NCBI RefSeq assembly: GCF_028640845.1
Contig: NC_080539.1
Span: 369,441,233 to 369,505,232, forward strand
DNA length: 64,000 bases
Source: Ahaetulla prasina
Taxonomy: Eukaryota; Chordata; Lepidosauria; Squamata; Colubridae
Direction: 5' to 3'
The translations under genes were made by a program, and so were the position numbers. The notes under the pieces were generated by a model, which was not told the DNA's origin, searched no databases, and saw only the letters and a list, made by a program, of their open reading frames with translations. Below, in pieces: positions 1,936-63,706 of this stretch (positions are counted from its first letter, which is position 1; every line of letters starts with the position of its first letter).

Positions 1936-2014
1936 CTGCTGTGCGCTGTGAGCTTCAGGATGTCCCTCACACTATCGTGGATCGTGGCTCTTCTCGCCTG
2001 TCTCTCCTGCTTAG
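1936..2014 (+). CDS. CSF3R: CSF3R-like exon 1: 5'UTR end and signal peptide
   Basis: The ATG at 1960 opens an 18-codon hydrophobic leader (M-S-L-T-L-S-W-I-V-A-L-L-A-C-L-S-C-L), a typical cleavable signal peptide that directs the receptor into the secretory pathway. The exon appears to start at 1936 after 'tctcttttcag', so 24 bases of 5'UTR precede the ATG. It ends in phase 1 at 2014 before the donor 'gtaaca'. A leader exon carrying only the UTR end and signal peptide is usual in gp130-group receptors. The next exon found is 23 kb away and completes the split glycine codon. Because the exon is so short, its assignment rests on position, phase and leader quality rather than homology. Confidence 0.65.
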
Positions 2015-31199: not shown

Positions 31200-31381
31200 G
31201 GAAGCTGGACGCTGCCAAAGAGACTTTGGCCTCCTCAAGAATTGCGTGGCTGATCCAGGAGAACACTGGTGTGGTGTCCCAATGGAGAATCTCTTTGCTT
31301 TCTACAAGATCAAATTAATCGCACAGAACCAGCAGCTAAGGGCTTACTCCTCGGAGAAGTGCCTCCACGGAATGAGCATCG
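31200..31381 (+). CDS. CSF3R: CSF3R-like exon 3: second half of domain D1
   Basis: The acceptor is 'tttcttttctgcag' and the donor is 'gtaagc'. Enters phase 2 and leaves phase 1, giving 61 residues. G-R-C-Q ... N-C-V-A-D-P-G-E-H-W-C-G-V-P supplies the second conserved cysteine pair and the turn of D1. The exon ends in E-K-C-L-H-G-M-S-I. The spacing of G-x-C-Q, C-V and C-x-(V/I)-P agrees with CSF3R rather than with IL27RA or IL12RB2. This part helps form the ligand-binding elbow with D2. Confidence 0.88.
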
Positions 31382-33375: not shown

Positions 33376-33527
33376 TGAAACTGAACTCGCCAGTATTGAA
33401 CGTGGCTGCACCCCAAAGCCGCTGCCTCCAGCCACAATGGAGCCTGCCTGGGGACGAGCTGATATCGGCAACGGAAGCCCAGTATCAGGTCCGGTACTGT
33501 GACCTGGTGGATTTATCTTGCCTGCAG
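33376..33527 (+). CDS. CSF3R: CSF3R-like exon 4: first half of domain D2
   Basis: The acceptor is 'gctcctcctag' and the donor is 'gtgggt'. Enters phase 1 and leaves phase 0, giving 51 codons with the split one. Starts V-K-L-N-S-P-V-L, the inter-domain linker, then C-L-Q-P-Q-W-S-L-P (B-C strand tryptophan) and Y-Q-V-R-Y-C. The linker with its downstream C-L-Q-x-x-W matches the CSF3R pattern closely. Polypyrimidine and MITE sequences lie directly on either side. Confidence 0.88.
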
Positions 33528-33715: not shown

Positions 33716-34990
33716 AACTATGTTCCTAGTAACATGGTTGTTAAGTGAATCTGGCTTCCTAGTGACATGGTTGTTAAGTGAATCCGACTTCCAAGTAACA
33801 TGGTTGTTAAGTGAATCCAGTAACATGGTTGTTAAGTGAATCCAGTAACATGGTTGTTAAGTGAATCCAGTAACATGGTTGTTAAGTGAATCCAACTTCC
33901 TAGTAACATGGTTGTTAAGTGAATCTGGCTTACTAGTAACATGGTTGTTAAGTGAATCTGGCTTCCTAGTAACATGGTTGTTAAATGAATCCGGCTTCCT
34001 AGTAACATGGTTGTTAAGTGAATCCGACTTCCAAGTAACATGGTTGTTAAGTGAATCCGGCTTCCTAGTAACATGGCTGTTAAGTGAATCCGCCTTCCAA
34101 ATAACATGGTTGTTAAGTGAATCCAGCTTCCTAGTAACATGGTTGTTAAGTGAATCCGGCTTCCTAGTAACATGGTTGTTCCTAGTAACATGGTTGTTAA
34201 GTAACATGGTTGTTAAGTGAATCCAGTAACATGGTTGTTAAGTGAATCCAGCTTCCTAGTAACATGGTTGTTAAGTGAATCCGGCTTCCTAGTAACATGG
34301 TTGTTAAGTGAATCCGGCTTCCTAGTAACATGGTTGTTAAGTGAATCCGGCTTCCTAGTAACATGGTTGTTAAGTGAATCCGGCTTCCTAGTAACATGGT
34401 TGTTAAGTGAATCCGGCTTCCTAGTGACATGGCTGTTAAGTGAATCCGGCTTCCAAATAACATGGTTGTTAAGTGAATCCAGCTTCCTAGTGACATGGTT
34501 GTTAAGTGAATCTGGCTTCCTAGTGACATGGTTGTTAAGTGAATCCGGCTTCCTAGTGACATGGTTGTTAAGTGAATCCGGCTTCCTAGTGACATGGTTG
34601 TTAAGTGAATCCGGCTTCCTAGTGACATGGCTGTTAAGTGAATCCGGCTTCCAAATAACATGGTTGTTAAGTGAATCCAGCTTCCAAATAACATGGTTGT
34701 TAAGTGAATCCGGCTTCCTAGTGACATGGTTGTTAAGTGAATCTGGCTTCCTAGTGACATGGTTGTTAAGTGAATCCGGCTTCCTAGTGACATGGTTGTT
34801 GAGTGAATCCAGCTTCTTACTAACATGGTTGTTAAGTGAATCTGGCTTCCTAGTGACATGGTTGTTAAGTGAATCCAGCTTCCTAGTGACATGGTTGTTA
34901 AGTGAATCCAGCTTCCTAGTAACATGGTTGTTGAGTGAATCCAGCTTCTTACTAACATGGTTGTTAAGTGAATCTGGCTTCTCCATAGAC
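33716..34990. repeat. 33-bp minisatellite grown from the MITE
   Basis: About 38 units of 'aacatggttgttaagtgaat' plus 'ccggcttcctagt', with some 21-bp shortened units at 33806-33880. Since 33 is a multiple of three and no unit contains a stop in several frames, long open frames appear on both strands (up to 281 codons). They are artefacts of periodicity. Confidence 0.92.
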
Positions 34991-35564
34991 TTTGCTTGTC
35001 AGAAGGTCACAAAAGGGGATCGCCTGACCCCGGGATGCTGCAACTGTCAAAAATACAGGTAGTCCTCAACTTACAACAGTTCATTTAGCAACCGTTCAAA
35101 GTTACAACGACATCAAAAAAAGTGAGCTATGATTGTTTTTCACACTTACGACAGTGCTTGGCCACTGATTCATATTTATGACGGTTGCCATGCCCTGCAG
35201 TTACGTGATCCCTGTTTGCGACCTTCTGACAAGCAAAGTCAATGGGAAGCCCAGATTCCCTTAACAACCGTGTTGCTACCTTAACAAATGCAATGATTCA
35301 CTTAACTACTTAGGGTGACAAGGAAAGTCGTAAAATGGGGCGAACTCCCTTAAGAAGTGTTTCACGTAACAACGTAAATTTTGGGCTCAATGGCAGTCGT
35401 AACTTGAGAACTACCTATGCATGCCAGTTGGCCAAGCCTCTGAATTTTGCTTGCGTTGACCATGGGGATACCGCAATGGTCCCAAAAAGGATCATCAGTC
35501 CCTTTGTTCAGTGTTGTCGTAACTTTGAATGATCACTAAACGAACGGTTGCAAGTCAAGGACTA
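34991..35564. repeat. GTCCTCGACTTAC MITE copies
   Basis: The right end of the minisatellite-bearing copy (to 35056), a full copy at about 35054-35425, and part of an inverse copy interrupted at 35564 by the solo LTR. Confidence 0.75.
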
Positions 35565-36164: not shown

Positions 36165-36345
36165 GTCAATTTTACAGCACTGGAGAATGCACCGCTTTCT
36201 GCAAACATCTGTGGGCTGTTCCCCTTCACCAACTACTCTATGCAAGTACGGGCAAAATATCTGCCGAGTTCTGCTTACCAAAGCGATGGTGATCCCTTTT
36301 GGAGCGACTGGAGTTTGGAGACATTTGCAAGGACCCTTCCGGCAG
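36165..36345 (+). CDS. CSF3R: CSF3R-like exon 5: second half of D2 with WSDWS box
   Basis: The acceptor is 'aacacactcacag' and the donor is 'gtatgg'. Phase 0 in and phase 1 out, giving 60 codons. It carries I-C-G-L-F-P-F-T-N-Y-S-M-Q-V-R, the conserved F-G region of the second cytokine-receptor domain, and F-W-S-D-W-S-L-E, the WSxWS motif that identifies class I cytokine receptors. Potential N-glycosylation sites are N-F-T and N-Y-S. An insertion (S-S-A-Y-Q-S-D-G-D-P) just before WSDWS makes the loop longer than in mammalian relatives. Confidence 0.95.
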
Positions 36346-42825: not shown

Positions 42826-42908
42826 TTCCTTCCCGAGGGCCAGCATTCTGGAGAAAAATAGGAAGCCCCACTGCTGACAAAGAGAGAGCGGTTGTCCTGA
42901 TGTGGAAG
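42826..42908 (+). CDS. CSF3R: CSF3R-like exon 6: first half of FNIII domain D3
   Basis: Reads V-P-S-R-G-P-A-F-W-R-K-I-G-S-P-T-A-D-K-E then R-A-V-V-L-M-W-K, in phase 1 and out in phase 0 at donor 'gtagga'. The A-x-F-W-x-K-I and V-x-L-x-W-K spacing is that of the first membrane-proximal FNIII domain of gp130 and CSF3R. It joins in frame with exon 5 (phase 1) and exon 7 (phase 0), which is why this 83-bp exon is accepted despite its weak donor and the distance between pyrimidine tract and AG. Confidence 0.8.
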
Positions 42909-54512: not shown

Positions 54513-54732
54513 CCCTTGAAGCCCAAGGAAGCCAACGGTGAGATTTTGGGGTACAGCCTCCGCTCTCAGCAGAAAGGGGAGCTCGCGAGGCCCGCATGCA
54601 ACACTCACCACCTGCAGTGCCGTCTGCTCCTCCCGGCCGGCGAAGAATTCACCTTTTATCTCACCGCTAAAAACACGGTCGGCATCTCGCCTCCAACCAG
54701 GCTGGTGATCCCAGCCTTCCGTAACCCGGAAG
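54513..54732 (+). CDS. CSF3R: CSF3R-like exon 7: second half of FNIII domain D3
   Basis: The acceptor is 'ttatcctgctag' and the donor is 'gtaaga'. Phase 0 in and phase 1 out. Starts P-L-K-P-K-E-A-N-G-E-I-L-G-Y, the strand C region also seen in gp130 relatives, then A-C-N-T-H-H-L-Q-C-R-L-L-L-P-A-G and Y-L-T-A-K-N-T-V-G. The C-N-T-x-x-L-x-C ... L-P order is a strong CSF3R-like trait. Ends in a short P-A-F-R-N-P-E linker to the next domain. Confidence 0.93.
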
Positions 54733-57667: not shown

Positions 57668-57853
57668 TCCCGCCTTCCCCTCTGTCCATCCTCGTGTCTT
57701 CGGCAGGGGACCACTCCCTCCTCTTACAGTGGTCTCTTCCCAGCAACCCAAAGATGGACTTTGTTCTGGAGTGGAACAAACTGCCTGAGAAGGAAGGGGG
57801 AGACCCATACTGGCAGTATCAGCCGGAGAATGTCAACCATACGGTCATTACTG
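57668..57853 (+). CDS. CSF3R: CSF3R-like exon 8: first half of FNIII domain D4
   Basis: The acceptor is 'tcttttttgtctctag' and the donor is 'gtgagt'. Phase 1 in and out. V-P-P-S-P-L-S-I-L-V opens the domain; H-S-L-L-L-Q-W-S-L-P and D-F-V-L-E-W are the conserved B and C strands (W and L-E-W). Ends P-E-N-V-N-H-T-V-I-T-G, with a glycosylation site N-H-T. The following exon must supply strands E-G. Confidence 0.93.
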
Positions 57854-57904: not shown

Positions 57905-59260
57905 AGCAACAAAGGGGCATAGTGAGAGAAAAAGGGAGGGAGGGAGGGAGCAAGGAGGGAGGAGGAGGAGGAAAGGGAGGGAGGGAAGGGAGAGGAGAGG
58001 AGGGAGAGAGAGAAGAATGAGGGAAGGAAGGGAGGAAGAAGAGGATGAGATAGGGAAGGTGGGAGGGAGGAAATGAGGAGGGAGGAAAGGAAGGAAGGAG
58101 AGAGAAGGGAGGAGGGACAGAGGAAGTAAGACGGAAAGGAGGAAAGGAGGGAGGAGGAAGAAGGAAGGAAGGAGAGAGACAGAAGGGTGGGAGGGAGGGA
58201 CAGAGGGATGGAGGGCGGAAGAAAGAAGGAAAAGAGGAAAGAAGGAGGGAGGAAGGGAACGAGGGAGGGAGAGAGGAAGGAAGGAGGGAGAGAAGGGTGG
58301 AGGGAAGGACAGAGGGATGGAAGGAGGAAGTAAGATGGAAAGGAAGAAAGAAGGAGGGAGGGAAGGAAGGAGAGAGAAGGGTGGGAGGGAAGGACAGGGA
58401 TGGAGGGAGGAAGAAGGAAAGGAGGAAAGGAGGAGGGAGGAAGGAAAGGAGGGAGGGAGGGAGGAAGGAAGGAAGGAGAGAGAGAAAGGTGGAGGGAAGG
58501 ACAGAGGGATGGAAGGAGGAAGTAAGATGGAAAGGAGGAAAGAAGGAAGGGAGGGAAGGAAGGAGAGAGAAGGGTGGGAGGGAAGGACAGGGATGGAGGA
58601 AGGAAGAAGGAAAGGAGGAAAGAAGGAGGGAGGAAGGGAAGGAGGGAGGAAGGGAGGAAGGAAGGAAGGAGAGAGAGAAAGGTGGAGGGAAGGACAGAGG
58701 GATGGAAGGAGGAAGTAAGATGGAAAGGAGGAAAGAAGGAAGGGAGGGAAGGAAGGAGAGAAGGGTGGGAGGGAAGGACAGGGAGGGAGGAAGGAAGAAG
58801 GAAAGGAGGAAAGAAGGAGGGAGGAAGGGAAGGAGGGAGGGAGGAAGGAAGGAAGGAGAGAGAGAAGGGTGGAGGGAAGGACAGAGGGATGGAAGGAGGA
58901 AGTAAGATGGAAAGGAGGAAAGAAGGAGGGAGGGAAGGAGAGAGACAGAAGGGTGGGAGGGAGGGACAGAGGAAGTAAGACAGAAAGGAGGAAAGAAGGA
59001 GGGAGGAAGGGAGGGAAGAAGGAAGGAAGGAAAGAGAGAGACAGAAGGGTGGGAGGGAGGGACAGAGGGATGGAGGGCGGAAGAAAGAAGGAAAAGAGGA
59101 AAGAAGGAGGGAGAGAGGAAGAAAGGGAGGGAGGGAGGAAAGGAATAAGAGGACATTCAAAAAGAAAGAGGGGATTGGGAAAATATCAGAGAGAAAGAAT
59201 TGCCACAAAGAAAGACAGAAGAGAGAAAAAGGAGGGTGGAAAAAAGAATGATGATGGGCG
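57905..59260. repeat. 1.35-kb polypurine (GGAA/GGGA) tract with ~190-bp higher-order repeat
   Basis: Plus strand nearly all purine. A phrase containing 'acagagggatggaaggagga' recurs at about 58310, 58503, 58692 and 58882, so the tract has a ~190-bp higher-order unit. The 445- and 468-codon serine/proline/phenylalanine frames on the minus strand are low-complexity artefacts. Confidence 0.92.
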
Positions 59261-59989: not shown

Positions 59990-61262
59990 GGGGCTCAATC
60001 GAAGGGAGATTTCCTGCAAGAAACTTCACGGTGAACTTCGCCGTGAGCTGCCAAAATGATCAGAGCAAAACAGACAAGGGAGGATAGAAAAACCAAACTA
60101 GACATAAGTAAGATGCCAAGATATTCGGAAATATTAGACAAACAGGAAAAACTTAAAAACGTTAAAGGAACAGGGAATATCGATAGATTGGTGGCCATAT
60201 TTACAATTGCAATCCAGATATAAGAAAGACATGGAAGAATTTGGAATGGATTTGGAACCAAACCAACTAGACAAATTATTGATAGGCCCAGAAGGAAAAT
60301 TAATATCTAAATTATATAAATACCTACTAAGAATTTGATAGAATGGAAGAGGTGGTGAAAGAACCAATGATTGCATGGGCAAAGAATATAGGGCACAATA
60401 TAGATTTAGATAATTGGGAATTAATCTGGACTAAAAATTTAAAATTAACCAAATCTACTGCTTACAAAGAAAATCAATATAAAATGCTTTACCGCTGGCA
60501 CCTAGCGCCAGATAGGTTGGCCAAAATATACTCGAACCTAAGTCCAAAGTGCTGGAAATGTAATTAACATCAAGGTACCTTCTTTCATGCCTGGTGGACT
60601 TGCCCCAAAGCGAAAAAGTACTGGATTAAGATCAGTGGTGAGATTCAAGTAATTCAACAACCGGTTCTCTGCCTTCATGATTTCTTCCAACAACCAGTTT
60701 GCCAAACTGCTCAGAAAGTTAACAACCGGTTCTCCCGAAGTGGTGCGAACTGGCTGAATCCCACCACTGATTAAGATACAGGGGTGGTTACAGGATATAA
60801 CAAAATGCCAAATTGAACTGAATCCAGAAACATTTCTTTGGGGAATGTTTAAGACAAAATTAGATAAAAAAAACAAGATACTTGATTTTGCACATTCTAA
60901 CAGCGGCAAGGATTGCGTTCGCGCAATATTGGAAACTTAGGAACATACCACCTGAGAGTCTGATTATCCAAAAAGTATATGACTGTGCAGAAATGGACAG
61001 GCTTACCATAGAACTACAAGAAAAAGAAGATTCAGAATACTATGCGGTCTGGGAAAACTGGTACACATGGACAATCAATAGAAATAGAAAACAATATATA
61101 TATATAAGGCTGTTGAAGATTAGATGTATATAATGCATATAGAAATTATATGGAAGGTAGATCCAAAATATACAATAATATCACAGCTCTGTTGAATATG
61201 TACAATTGTTATGAAAAAAACATGGTAATAAAAATAAAATTAAAAGAAAAGAAAAATCAAAC
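59990..61262 (+). repeat. L1-type LINE 3' part, interrupted by a hAT-type element
   Basis: Frames 60343-60567 and 60882-61133, with a gap, encode the C-terminal region of an L1 ORF2 (Y-K-M-L-Y-R-W-H-L-A-P, C-W-K-C-N, H-A-W-W-T-C-P). The 3' end is A-rich. Frameshifts and stops throughout. Confidence 0.85.
60633..60769. mobile_element. 137-bp hAT-type MITE with perfect 8-bp duplication
   Basis: Starts CAGTGGTGAGATTC, ends GAATCCCACCACTG, flanked by ATTAAGAT at 60625-60632 and 60770-60777. Removing it restores the L1 sequence. Confidence 0.92.
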
Positions 61263-61334
61263 GGCAGGGCCACAAATGTTTCTGTAATTGTTCACTTCTT
61301 CCTCCTCCTCTTCCTCCTCCTCCTCCTTCTCTAG

Positions 61335-61436
61335 AAGCCATCGATCCTGGGCATCTTTATGCCGTGAAGATCTTTGGACTCTTAGATGGACGTCTCATAG
61401 CCTTTGGTTCCGCTCAGGCTTACTCCAAGCAAATCG
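61335..61436 (+). CDS. CSF3R: CSF3R-like exon 9, copy A: second half of FNIII D4
   Basis: A 102-bp exon, phase 1 in and 1 out, with a (CTC)n/CTT pyrimidine tract and 'ctctag' before it and 'gtaagt' after. Encodes 34 residues: E-A-I-D-P-G-H-L-Y-A-V-K-I-F-G-L-L-D-G then the G strand with A-Y-S-K-Q-I. The D-P-G-x-L-Y-x-(V/I)-x-(I/V) pattern is the E-F strand of an FNIII domain, and A-Y-S matches CSF3R. Keeps its native upstream intron end next to an L1 3' end. Confidence 0.92.
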
Positions 61437-61502
61437 GTAAGTGGAGCCTGTGAGGCCTCCTGGGGGGGATATTCCTGGATTTGAGGGCTGGCTATTATTT
61501 AG

Positions 61503-61833
61503 TAGAGGGATGCGGTGGCTCAGTGGCTAAGACGCTGAGCTTGTCGATCGAAAGGTTGGCAGTTCAGCGGTTCGAATCCCTGGTGCTGCCGCATAACGGG
61601 ATGAGCTCCCGCCAACCTAGCAGTTCCAAAGCACGTAAAAAAATGCAAGTAGAAAAATAGGGACCACCTTTGGTTGGGAAGGTAACAGCGTTCCGTGCGC
61701 CTTTGGCATTGAGTCATGCCAGCCACATGACCATGGAAACGTCTTCGGACAGCGCTGGCTCTTCGGCTTTGAAACGGAGATGAGCACCGCCCCCTAGAGT
61801 CAGGAACGACTAGCACATATGTGTGAGGGGATG
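61503..61833 (+). repeat. tRNA-derived SINE, copy in unit A
   Basis: Head with A box 'gtggctcagtggctaag' and B box 'ggttcgaatcc', about 250-bp body, ending 'cacatatgtgtgagggga'. Confidence 0.8.
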
Positions 61834-61857
61834 TTGTGACTCATCCTCCTTCTCTAG

Positions 61858-61959
61858 AAGCCATCGATCCTGGGCATCTTTATGCCGTGAAGATCTTTGG
61901 ACTCTTAGATGGACGTCTCATAGCCTTTGGTTCCGCTCAGGCTTACTCCAAGCAAATCG
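61858..61959 (+). CDS. CSF3R: CSF3R-like exon 9, copy B (tandem duplicate)
   Basis: Identical to copy A over all 102 bp, same phases, acceptor 'tctctag' and donor 'gtaagc'. The duplicated segment begins only about 15 bp upstream of the exon, so the natural branch-point region is replaced by the end of a SINE and the first bases of an LTR (61830-61842). Whether it is spliced cannot be told from sequence. Confidence 0.75.
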
Positions 61960-62021
61960 GTAAGCGGAGCCTGTGAGGCCTCCTGGGGGGGATATTCCTG
62001 GATTTGAGGGCTGGCTATTAT

Positions 62022-62373
62022 TTAGTAGAGGGATGCGGTGGCTCAGTGGCTAAGACGCTGAGCTTGTCAATCGAAAGGTTGGCAGTTCAGCGGTTCGAAT
62101 CCCTGGTGCTGCCGCATAACGGGGTGAGCTCCCGTGACTTGTCCCAGCTTCTGCCAACCTAGCAGTTCCAAAGCACGTAAAAAAATGCAAGTAGAAAAAT
62201 AGGGACCACCTTTGGTTGGGAAGGTAAGAGCATTCCGTGCGCCTTTGGCATTGAGTCATGCTGGCCACATGACCACGGAGACGTCTTCGGACAGCGCTGG
62301 CTCTTCGGCTTTGAAACGGAGATGAGCACCGCCCCCTAGAGTCAGGAACGACTAGCACATATGTGTGAGGGGA
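62022..62373 (+). repeat. tRNA-derived SINE, copy in unit B
   Basis: Copy of 61503-61833, with the additional words 'gacttgtcccagcttct' in the body that unit A lacks. Confidence 0.8.
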
Positions 62374-62569
62374 TGTTGTGACTCGTCCTCCCTCCTCTCC
62401 TCAGCCGGGCCCCTCCCGTCTTCAACCAGGCCTTTTATCAGACTCCGAGTCTGATAATGAAGATGAAAGGTCTGTCATGACTCCAGCCCTGGCCTCATGC
62501 CTGGAGAGGATTCAAGGAGTGAAAGGAGAAGCCCAATAAACCTCACTCACACAGCGTGTGTTCCTTTGG
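62374..62569 (+). repeat. LTR fragment
   Basis: Starts TGTTGTGACTCG and matches the first ~190 bp of the LTR at 11896. It breaks at 'ggctcag|ccttccgtcc' into SINE sequence. Confidence 0.8.
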
Positions 62570-62778
62570 CTCAGCCTTCCGTCCTTCCGAGGTTGGTAAA
62601 ATGGGGACCCAAAATTGTTGGGGTTAAGAGGTTGACTCTGTAAACTGCTTAGAAAGGGCTGTAAAAGCACTGTGAAGCGGTATATAAGTCTAAGCGCTAT
62701 TGCTACTGCACCACCCATACAGAAAAAGGAGGTATCAGTAGGCTTGGAGTGACCTCAAATTATGGAGATGTACATGTA
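62570..62778 (+). repeat. Sauria-type SINE 3' part plus flank
   Basis: Nearly identical to 63463-63679, including non-SINE flank 'atggagatgtacatgtacga', which shows it belongs to a segmental duplication. Confidence 0.85.
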
Positions 62779-63118
62779 CGAATATTGGAAACTTAGGAAC
62801 ATACCACCAGAGAGTCTGATTATCCAAAAGTATATGATTGCGCAGAAATGGATAGGCTTACCATAGAATTACAAGAAAAAGAAGATTCAGAAATACTATG
62901 CGGTCTGGGAAAATTGGTACACATGGACAATTAATAGAAATAGAAAACAATATATATATAAGGCTATTGATGATTAGATGTATATAATGTATATAGAAAT
63001 TATATGGAAGGTAGATCCAAAATATACAATAATGTCACAGTTCTGTTGAATATGTACAATTGTTATAAAAAAAGTAATAAAAATAAAATTAAAAGAAAAG
63101 AAAAATCAAACGGCAGGG
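62779..63118 (+). repeat. L1 3' end, duplicated
   Basis: Copy of about 60929-61262 with small differences. Confidence 0.85.
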
Positions 63119-63177
63119 CCACAAATGTTTCTGTAATTGTTCACTTCTTCCTCCTCCTCTTCCTCCTCCTCCTCTAG

Positions 63178-63279
63178 AAGCCATCGACCCTGGGCATCTT
63201 TATGCCGTGAAGATATTTGGACTCTTAGATGGACTTCTCAGAGCCTTTGGTTCTGCTCAGGCCTACTCCAAGCAAATCG
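63178..63279 (+). CDS. CSF3R: CSF3R-like exon 9, copy C (diverged duplicate)
   Basis: 102 bp, phase 1-1, acceptor 'cctcctctag', donor 'gtaagt'. It differs from copies A and B at six positions: four silent, and two replacements in adjacent strands (the codon pair R-L-I becomes L-L-R). Reading frame and splice sites are intact. Its upstream L1 and pyrimidine tract are retained, so of the two extra copies this one looks the more usable. Confidence 0.8.
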
Positions 63280-63346
63280 GTAAGTGGAGCCTGTGAGGCC
63301 TCCTGGGGGGGATATTCCTGGATTTGAGGGCTGGCTATTATTTAGT

Positions 63347-63610
63347 AAGAAAGTGCACGATGGTGCAGTGGTTAGAGTGCAGTACTGCAGGCTACTTCTG
63401 CTGACTGCCGGCTGACTGCAATTTGGCAGTCTCAAATCTCATCAGGTTCAAGGTTGACTCAGCCTTCCGTCCTTCCGAGGTTGGTAAAATGGGGACCCAA
63501 AATTGTTGGGGTTAAGAGGTTGACTCTGTAAACTGCTTAGAAAGGGCTGTAAAAGCACTGTGAAGCGGTATATAAGTCTAAGCGCTATTGCTATTGCTAC
63601 TGCACCACCC
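63347..63610 (+). repeat. Sauria-type SINE
   Basis: Head 'gatggtgcagtggttagagt', body 'ttgactcagccttccgtcc', tail 'gcggtatataagtctaagcg'. Confidence 0.88.
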
Positions 63611-63706
63611 ATACAGAAAAAGGAGGTATCAGTAGGCTTGGAGTGACCTCAAATTATGGAGATGTACATGTACGAATATCTTTTATTTGCTACCATATTG
63701 TGAAGC

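Follow-up and report, generated by a model that had tools for sequence, protein, structure and literature searches.

A recent tandem triplication of one FNIII exon in a CSF3R-like receptor gene of the snake Ahaetulla prasina

The locus described here raises the question of how a receptor gene came to carry three nearly equal copies of one exon in series, and what such a gene can make of them. The copies lie in a 64,000-nucleotide stretch of Ahaetulla prasina DNA (the window), for which the original prediction had proposed a triplicated phase 1-1 exon with open frames and consensus splice sites. We recovered exactly this arrangement for exon 9 of the gene.

61335..61436, + strand: exon 9 copy A, assigned to the F-G hairpin of the D5-equivalent domain
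61858..61959, + strand: exon 9 copy B, identical to A, with a shortened pyrimidine tract and a GTAAGC donor
63178..63279, + strand: exon 9 copy C, with six differences from A; L at codon 20 and R at codon 22, where A and B have I

Each copy is 102 nt long, phase 1-1, preceded by AG, followed by GT and open. Copies A and B are identical over the 102 nt, and C differs from A by six changes, four of them silent (codons 4, 13, 26 and 29) and two replacement (codon 20, CGT in A and CTT in C, R/L; codon 22, ATA in A and AGA in C, I/R); a recheck gave the same counts as had been predicted. A DNA search of the 1.77-Gb genome with exon 9 returned three candidates, all of which were scored and all of which lie at the window locus (E values of 3.7e-45, 3.7e-45 and 4.9e-37), and no fourth copy was found elsewhere in the genome or in the next 40 kb downstream. 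Self-comparison of the window placed the copies inside larger repeats, and tblastn of six relatives against the window identified exon 9 as the sole repeated exon. An exon copied with flanking intron, in direct order and within one gene, is a tandem exon duplication. The expectation that the exon can be included or skipped without frameshift was borne out for the spliced full-length gene, whose reading frame is open in 8/8 inclusion combinations of A, B and C, the predicted receptor having 726 residues with no copy, 760 with one and 828 with all three.

The remaining exons of the host gene were located through the proteins of relatives, exons 10–14 being read from four 10-kb pieces fetched downstream of the window and given in window numbering continued past 64000.

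1960..2014, + strand: exon 1, start codon and signal peptide, matching residues 1-19 of the Pantherophis protein P0001
25026..25149, + strand: exon 2, first half of the first cytokine-receptor (CHR) domain, from relatives' proteins
31200..31381, + strand: exon 3, second half of the first CHR domain, from relatives' proteins
33376..33527, + strand: exon 4, first half of the second CHR domain, from relatives' proteins
36165..36345, + strand: exon 5, second half of the second CHR domain with the WSDWS motif, from relatives' proteins
42826..42908, + strand: exon 6, start of the FNIII domain equivalent to gp130 D4, from relatives' proteins
54513..54732, + strand: exon 7, remainder of the D4-equivalent domain, from relatives' proteins
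57668..57853, + strand: exon 8, five strands (to E) of the D5-equivalent FNIII domain, ending in phase 1, from relatives and the structure model
64958-65104: exon 10, downstream of the window
67983-68126: exon 11, downstream of the window
70287-70380: exon 12, downstream of the window
77325-77406: exon 13, downstream of the window
80391-80921: exon 14, downstream of the window

Exons 10–14 are intact with GT-AG borders, and the spliced one-copy product of 760 residues is 89.8% identical to P0001. Of the 16 matches of P0001 in the genome, 15 fall at the window locus and the remaining one, elsewhere, is weak (31%); neither this search nor that with exon 9 revealed a second CSF3R-like locus or a retrocopy in the 1.77-Gb genome. 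The product shows the features of a class I cytokine receptor, namely a CHR with a WSXWS motif (WSDWS, exon 5), three membrane-proximal FNIII domains, a transmembrane helix (at 528-560 in the model of P0001) and a full open frame, exons 6–14 being open. In a PDB sequence search with P0001 the best CHR-only chain was 1cd9_B of the G-CSF receptor (49.8 bits, against 29.6 for 1bqu_A of gp130), and for the whole ectodomain gp130 came first with 189.5 bits; among G-CSF receptor chains only 2d9q_B is longer, covering three domains, and it scored 64.9 bits. A turtle relative gave the same ranking, and the database names of the relatives are divided between CSF3R and gp130. The matches to relatives' proteins agree with the predicted CSF3R-like gene and with exon 8 as the upstream neighbour. 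We retain the name "CSF3R-like" since a search for the Ig-like D1 of human CSF3R found none at the locus.

For this domain (PF06328), a turtle-derived profile gave no convincing match in the six frames of the window (best E 0.059). The search of the genome returned four places, none of them at the CSF3R-like locus, which indicates that the search itself works. The same turtle-derived profile matched 11/11 turtle rows and 0/22 squamate rows, 13 of the latter being informative, with a methionine ahead of exon 2, and nine truncated; D1 appears to be missing from 13/13 squamate proteins with an intact N-terminus, and it was not found at positions 2014-25026 of the window, between exons 1 and 2. 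In human CSF3R the Ig-like domain takes part in the 2:2 ligand complex, and with D1 absent squamates may assemble the ligand complex differently. Our literature search found no paper joining CSF3R and squamate; the available part of PMC7717901 describes CSF3R as largely present in reptiles, with no mention there of an absence of D1.

Two repeat tracts were observed in the introns. In intron 4 a short unit is repeated many times over at 33860-35060, where each strand has an open frame (281 and 269 codons); we take this to be a minisatellite. Intron 8 contains a 1.2-kb purine-rich tandem repeat at 57930-59144, upstream of exon 9, with one period of 193 nt.

The relatives used for comparison were 33 different proteins of squamates and turtles, among them Pantherophis, Erythrolamprus, Pseudonaja, Crotalus, Python and Notechis, obtained from two protein searches (32 rows, and 25 rows with one new). 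The query of the second search was the three copies in series, and scoring was limited to the 7996 candidates with the most words in common. The comparison with related snakes that had been proposed as a check gave a uniform answer: in these annotated proteins, clustered at 90% identity with members hidden and compared as proteins rather than as DNA with unannotated copies, exon 9 occurs once in 30/30 squamate and turtle proteins holding the exon (33 examined; P0019, P0027 and P0031 are without it), and none of the 33 contains two copies, also with the three-copies-in-series query. Judged by these sequences, the triplication looks lineage-specific and young. Residue 4 is D in A, B and C, and E or K in all 27 relatives used for residue counts (two isoforms and one incompletely aligned row having been dropped); since D is common to all copies and occurs in 0/27 relatives, the copies probably postdate that change.

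The same 27 relatives bear on the direction of the two replacements. The L of copy C at codon 20 occurs in 0/27 relatives, and at codon 22 the R of copy C occurs in 8/27, including Pseudonaja and Crotalus adamanteus, and the I of A/B in 0/27. The polarity at codon 22 is likely rather than certain, because the two closest relatives, Pantherophis and Erythrolamprus, have G there. The original prediction was therefore correct in counting two replacements between the copies and probably wrong in assigning both to C, one having probably occurred on each branch (L20 in C, I22 in A/B). Among the predicted proteins, P0027 (Notechis scutatus) has exon 8 joined to exon 10 in frame, without exon 9, a loss seen in a prediction only and possibly due to a gap in the assembly, and P0006 (Erythrolamprus reginae isoform X4) has exons 5-6 missing in frame.

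The repeats surrounding the copies allow the duplication joints to be read at base resolution. Their labels as L1-like and SINE-like are our presumption from general recognition of such stretches.

60925..62785, + strand: first copy of the large duplication unit, with L1-like stretch, exon A, SINE-like stretch, exon B and segment X
62781..63679, + strand: second copy of the large unit, with L1-like stretch, exon C, start of intron 9 and segment X
62781-62785, + strand: junction of the large units, a 5-bp microhomology AATAT common to both parents
61844..61849, + strand: junction of the 523-bp A/B tandem duplication, microhomology TCCTCC, in the pyrimidine tract of copy B

The two repeat units are of different extent, and their joints carry 5- and 6-bp microhomology; in random position pairs from 60-64 kb, microhomology of at least 5 arises by chance in 0.5% and of at least 6 in 0.2%. 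The two short joints suggest two duplication events. In the first, the unit from 60925 to the end of segment X would have been duplicated through the AATAT joint, giving the ancestor of A and B on one side and C on the other. A SINE-like stretch would then have entered the intron of the first unit copy, a placement between the events that we adopt because the stretch follows A and B and not C. In the second event, duplication of 523 bp through the TCCTCC joint would have split A from B, and since this joint lies inside the pyrimidine tract, copy B keeps only the last part of the native acceptor. Substitution rates lie at 1-3e-9 per site per year, by which the first event would date very roughly to 6-18 and the second to 4-12 million years ago.

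Divergence between the copies is uneven. Copies A and C differ at 14/396 sites of the upstream intron, at 0/68 sites in the first 68 nt of intron 9 and at 0/215 sites of segment X, where there is one indel; A and B differ at 10/413 intron sites and 0/102 exon sites. Over the large unit this amounts to a mosaic of 13/286 differences in the distal L1-like flank, 1/178 in the exon-adjacent introns, 6/102 in the exon and 0/283 in intron 9 plus X. Under even placement, a stretch of 299 sites free of differences among the 781 A/C sites has P=0.0009, and the L1-like flank plus exon differs in divergence from intron 9 plus X (p=0.0002). Moreover, each unit has a stretch that the other lacks, at ~62395-62565 in the first and ~63350-63453 in the second. 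The simple two-step history leaves both the mosaic and these unmatched stretches unaccounted for; one guess is that patches of gene conversion passed between the units and spared the exon core.

The mosaic also bears on an assembly artefact, which the original prediction had named as the main alternative, whereby a haplotype with A and B and a haplotype with C would have been joined in series. Segment X and the start of intron 9 are indeed as alike as alleles. The L1-like flank and exon, however, differ at 20/498 sites (4%), which exceeds the usual allelic distance, and the joints of only 5 and 6 bp are too short for an assembler's overlap. The window is without any N, it occupies 369441233-369505232 of a 377.6-Mb contig, and no further exon copy was found in the genome. 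A stitch would account for the identity of X and not for the divergence or the short joints; the artefact is thereby weakened as an alternative, and we consider it improbable.

The original prediction had further read the excess of silent changes as a hint of constraint on copy C. This reading did not hold. The probability of at most two replacements among six changes under neutrality is 0.05-0.08, which is borderline. Divergence is also higher in the exon than in the introns beside it (6/102 against 1/178, p=0.010), silent sites included (~4/29 against 1/178, p=0.0014), whereas the exon and the whole upstream intron do not differ (p=0.27); these comparisons were picked once the data had been seen. 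As the exon is more diverged than the adjacent introns, the silent excess needs another cause, perhaps gene conversion in the flanks. Two observations on the replaced residues point in opposite directions: the columns of the two replacements are variable among relatives (ranks 1 and 8 of 34), which was counted for constraint, and L20 and I22 each occur in 0/27 relatives, which was counted against it. The residue differences at codons 20 and 22 are probably near-neutral. We also considered intact frames as a sign of use and set this aside, as in simulation a copy was still open with GT-AG borders with a chance, per branch, of 0.56 for the A/C distance and 0.85 for the A/B distance.

These values are what would be expected if two of the copies were silent spares, that is, young and neutrally drifting pseudo-exons, with splicing always using A or C, and the remaining two either passed over or present in transcripts that are degraded. 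Besides the simulated survival, this reading is supported by an exon that is not less diverged than its flanking introns and by the shortened pyrimidine tract and weaker donor of copy B. It offers no visible cause for the complete exclusion of A or of C, whose sites are equally strong, and we regard it as unlikely, if worth some weight, next to a gene in which the copies compete.

What the copies would mean for the protein depends on the place of exon 9 in the receptor. A structure model of P0001, built from an alignment of 24 relatives (mean pLDDT 66.8, pTM 0.48; pLDDT 89-91 in the exon-9 blocks), shows exon 8 as five strands of one FNIII domain and exon 9, residues 396-429, as the last two, with strands F and G at 403-412 and 415-425. 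Foldseek searches with the model retrieved gp130 ectodomains and crystal structures of gp130 D4-D6 (3l5i, TM 0.88 by target length), and exons 8+9 align weakly with residues 407-474 of gp130 in 3l5h, the domain after D4. In the model exon 9 is the F-G beta-hairpin of the FNIII domain that corresponds to D5 of gp130. The predicted placement in D4 has accordingly to be revised to the second of the three membrane-proximal FNIII domains; that domain counts as the fourth here only because this protein is missing the Ig-like D1. Residues 20 and 22 of the exon correspond to model residues 415 and 417, at the start of strand G.

Since exon 9 forms part of one beta-sandwich, serial copies would give surplus hairpins rather than the lengthened domain that had been suggested, and we infer from the model that the FNIII domain cannot fold without the exon 9 piece. 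In gp130, the D4-D5 bend appears to be crucial geometry and removal of any of D4 to D6 leads to unresponsiveness, according to the available text of PMC10022904. Multi-copy products would have unpaired hairpins near the D4-D5 bend, so that the one-copy form is probably the working receptor.

The splice signals of the copies are graded. Scored with a human splice-site matrix, the donors of A and C (8.8 each, both GTAAGT) fall within the range of exons 4-8 (8.4-11.0) and that of B (7.4, GTAAGC) falls below it. In the acceptors of A and C all positions from -22 to -5 are pyrimidines (18/18), with a TTCAC at -41 and -35, and the acceptor of B has 14/18 pyrimidines with its only YTNAY within 60 nt at -15. 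The introns measure 421 nt between A and B, 1218 nt between B and C, and 1678 nt from C to exon 10.

Mutually exclusive isoforms, as had been proposed, would need some means of enforcement. The accessible portion of PMC5740500 names a U2/U12 conflict, a donor-to-branch-point distance of <50, a frame-breaking length, competing RNA structures and proteins as such devices, and the first three are all absent here (GTAAGT and GTAAGC donors, introns of 421 and 1218 nt, 102 divisible by 3). No inverted repeat of at least 14 nt linking single copies was found in 60-64 kb, nor any Rfam match at gathering threshold in 56-64 kb. RNA pairing between copies was set aside as a candidate device, the sole long-range inverted pair in 60-64 kb, I3 (15 nt, 87%, arms at 60118 and 63668), bracketing all three copies. 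With no barrier to joint inclusion seen, two- and three-copy transcripts are to be expected.

Regulated use of A/B and C as mutually exclusive alternatives with different F-G hairpins (R-L-I and L-L-R) has some appeal all the same. The exon is phase 1-1, in frame and within a folded domain, like the mutually exclusive exons described in the available part of PMC5740500, the two branches probably carry one replacement each, in columns that vary among relatives, and the borderline silent excess would fit. Apart from the missing devices, the identity of A and B leaves at most two variants, and in the portion of PMC9741552 at hand more than 90% of annotated human tandem-exon events have bony fish orthologues and mutual exclusion of duplicated exons is described as not common and mostly ancient. 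We do not place the locus among the mutually exclusive exon clusters, as neither conservation in relatives nor a simple enforcing device was found, and we judge regulated alternatives to be highly improbable.

The explanation we favour, with confidence a little above even, is a tandem duplication of one exon, young, lineage-specific and made in two steps, within an intact CSF3R-like gene that is present once in the genome; the exon copies would be chosen by competition. A working receptor would need exactly one exon 9 copy per transcript, the F-G hairpin closing the D5-equivalent beta-sandwich, and splicing would choose among the copies by competition, A and C being stronger and B weaker. Multi-copy or skipped transcripts would arise as by-products that fold badly; in the multi-copy products the unpaired hairpins would lie between D5 and D6, close to the D4-D5 bend. 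Enough one-copy receptor would be made for the duplication to be tolerated, as is suggested by the gene still being intact. Counted against competition is that the sequences of A and C offer no visible reason for preferring either.

A bolder reading, which we regard as quite improbable, is that two receptor forms, with A/B or with C according to cell type, tune signalling geometry, or that a serial A-B-C receptor signals differently. If true, a very young alternative exon beside the D4-D5 bend would tune the signalling geometry of a cytokine receptor, or, in the bolder form, an A-B-C receptor with surplus hairpins between D5 and D6 would reach the surface. If the extra copies are simply skipped, the locus is an ordinary young duplication.

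Among known systems, the exon 9 triplication is a recent tandem exon duplication, a known type of event. A literature search combining exon duplication with cytokine receptor, FNIII, gp130 or CSF3R in snakes gave no such case among the matches listed. The recent tandem exon duplications in the available text of PMC9013439 likewise copy a single coding exon with flanking intron head to tail in one gene; unlike the cases presented there, the snake locus has three copies, two nested units of different size and joints readable to the base, and concerns a cytokine receptor. The pathogenic duplication of DMD exon 2, as far as described in the accessible part of PMC3982197, likewise adds an exon copy with its own splice sites, whereas the 102 nt of exon 9 keep the frame and were found in a genome assembly, not through disease. 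The mutually exclusive clusters of PMC5740500 and PMC9741552, in the portions available, likewise consist of homologous, in-phase serial exons for the same piece of a domain; unlike them, the snake copies are near-identical, occur as a single copy in known relatives and showed no exclusion device. With the CSF3R/gp130 (IL6ST) family the locus shares the CHR with WSXWS, three FNIII domains and one transmembrane helix, and it differs in having no detected N-terminal Ig-like domain and in its triplicated exon 9. As most human tandem-exon events are ancient, the first few million years of a new event are seldom seen; the snake locus shows the duplication, both of its joints and the intact host gene together, and its three nearly equal copies would give a view of how the splicing machinery handles such exons and what a cytokine receptor tolerates.
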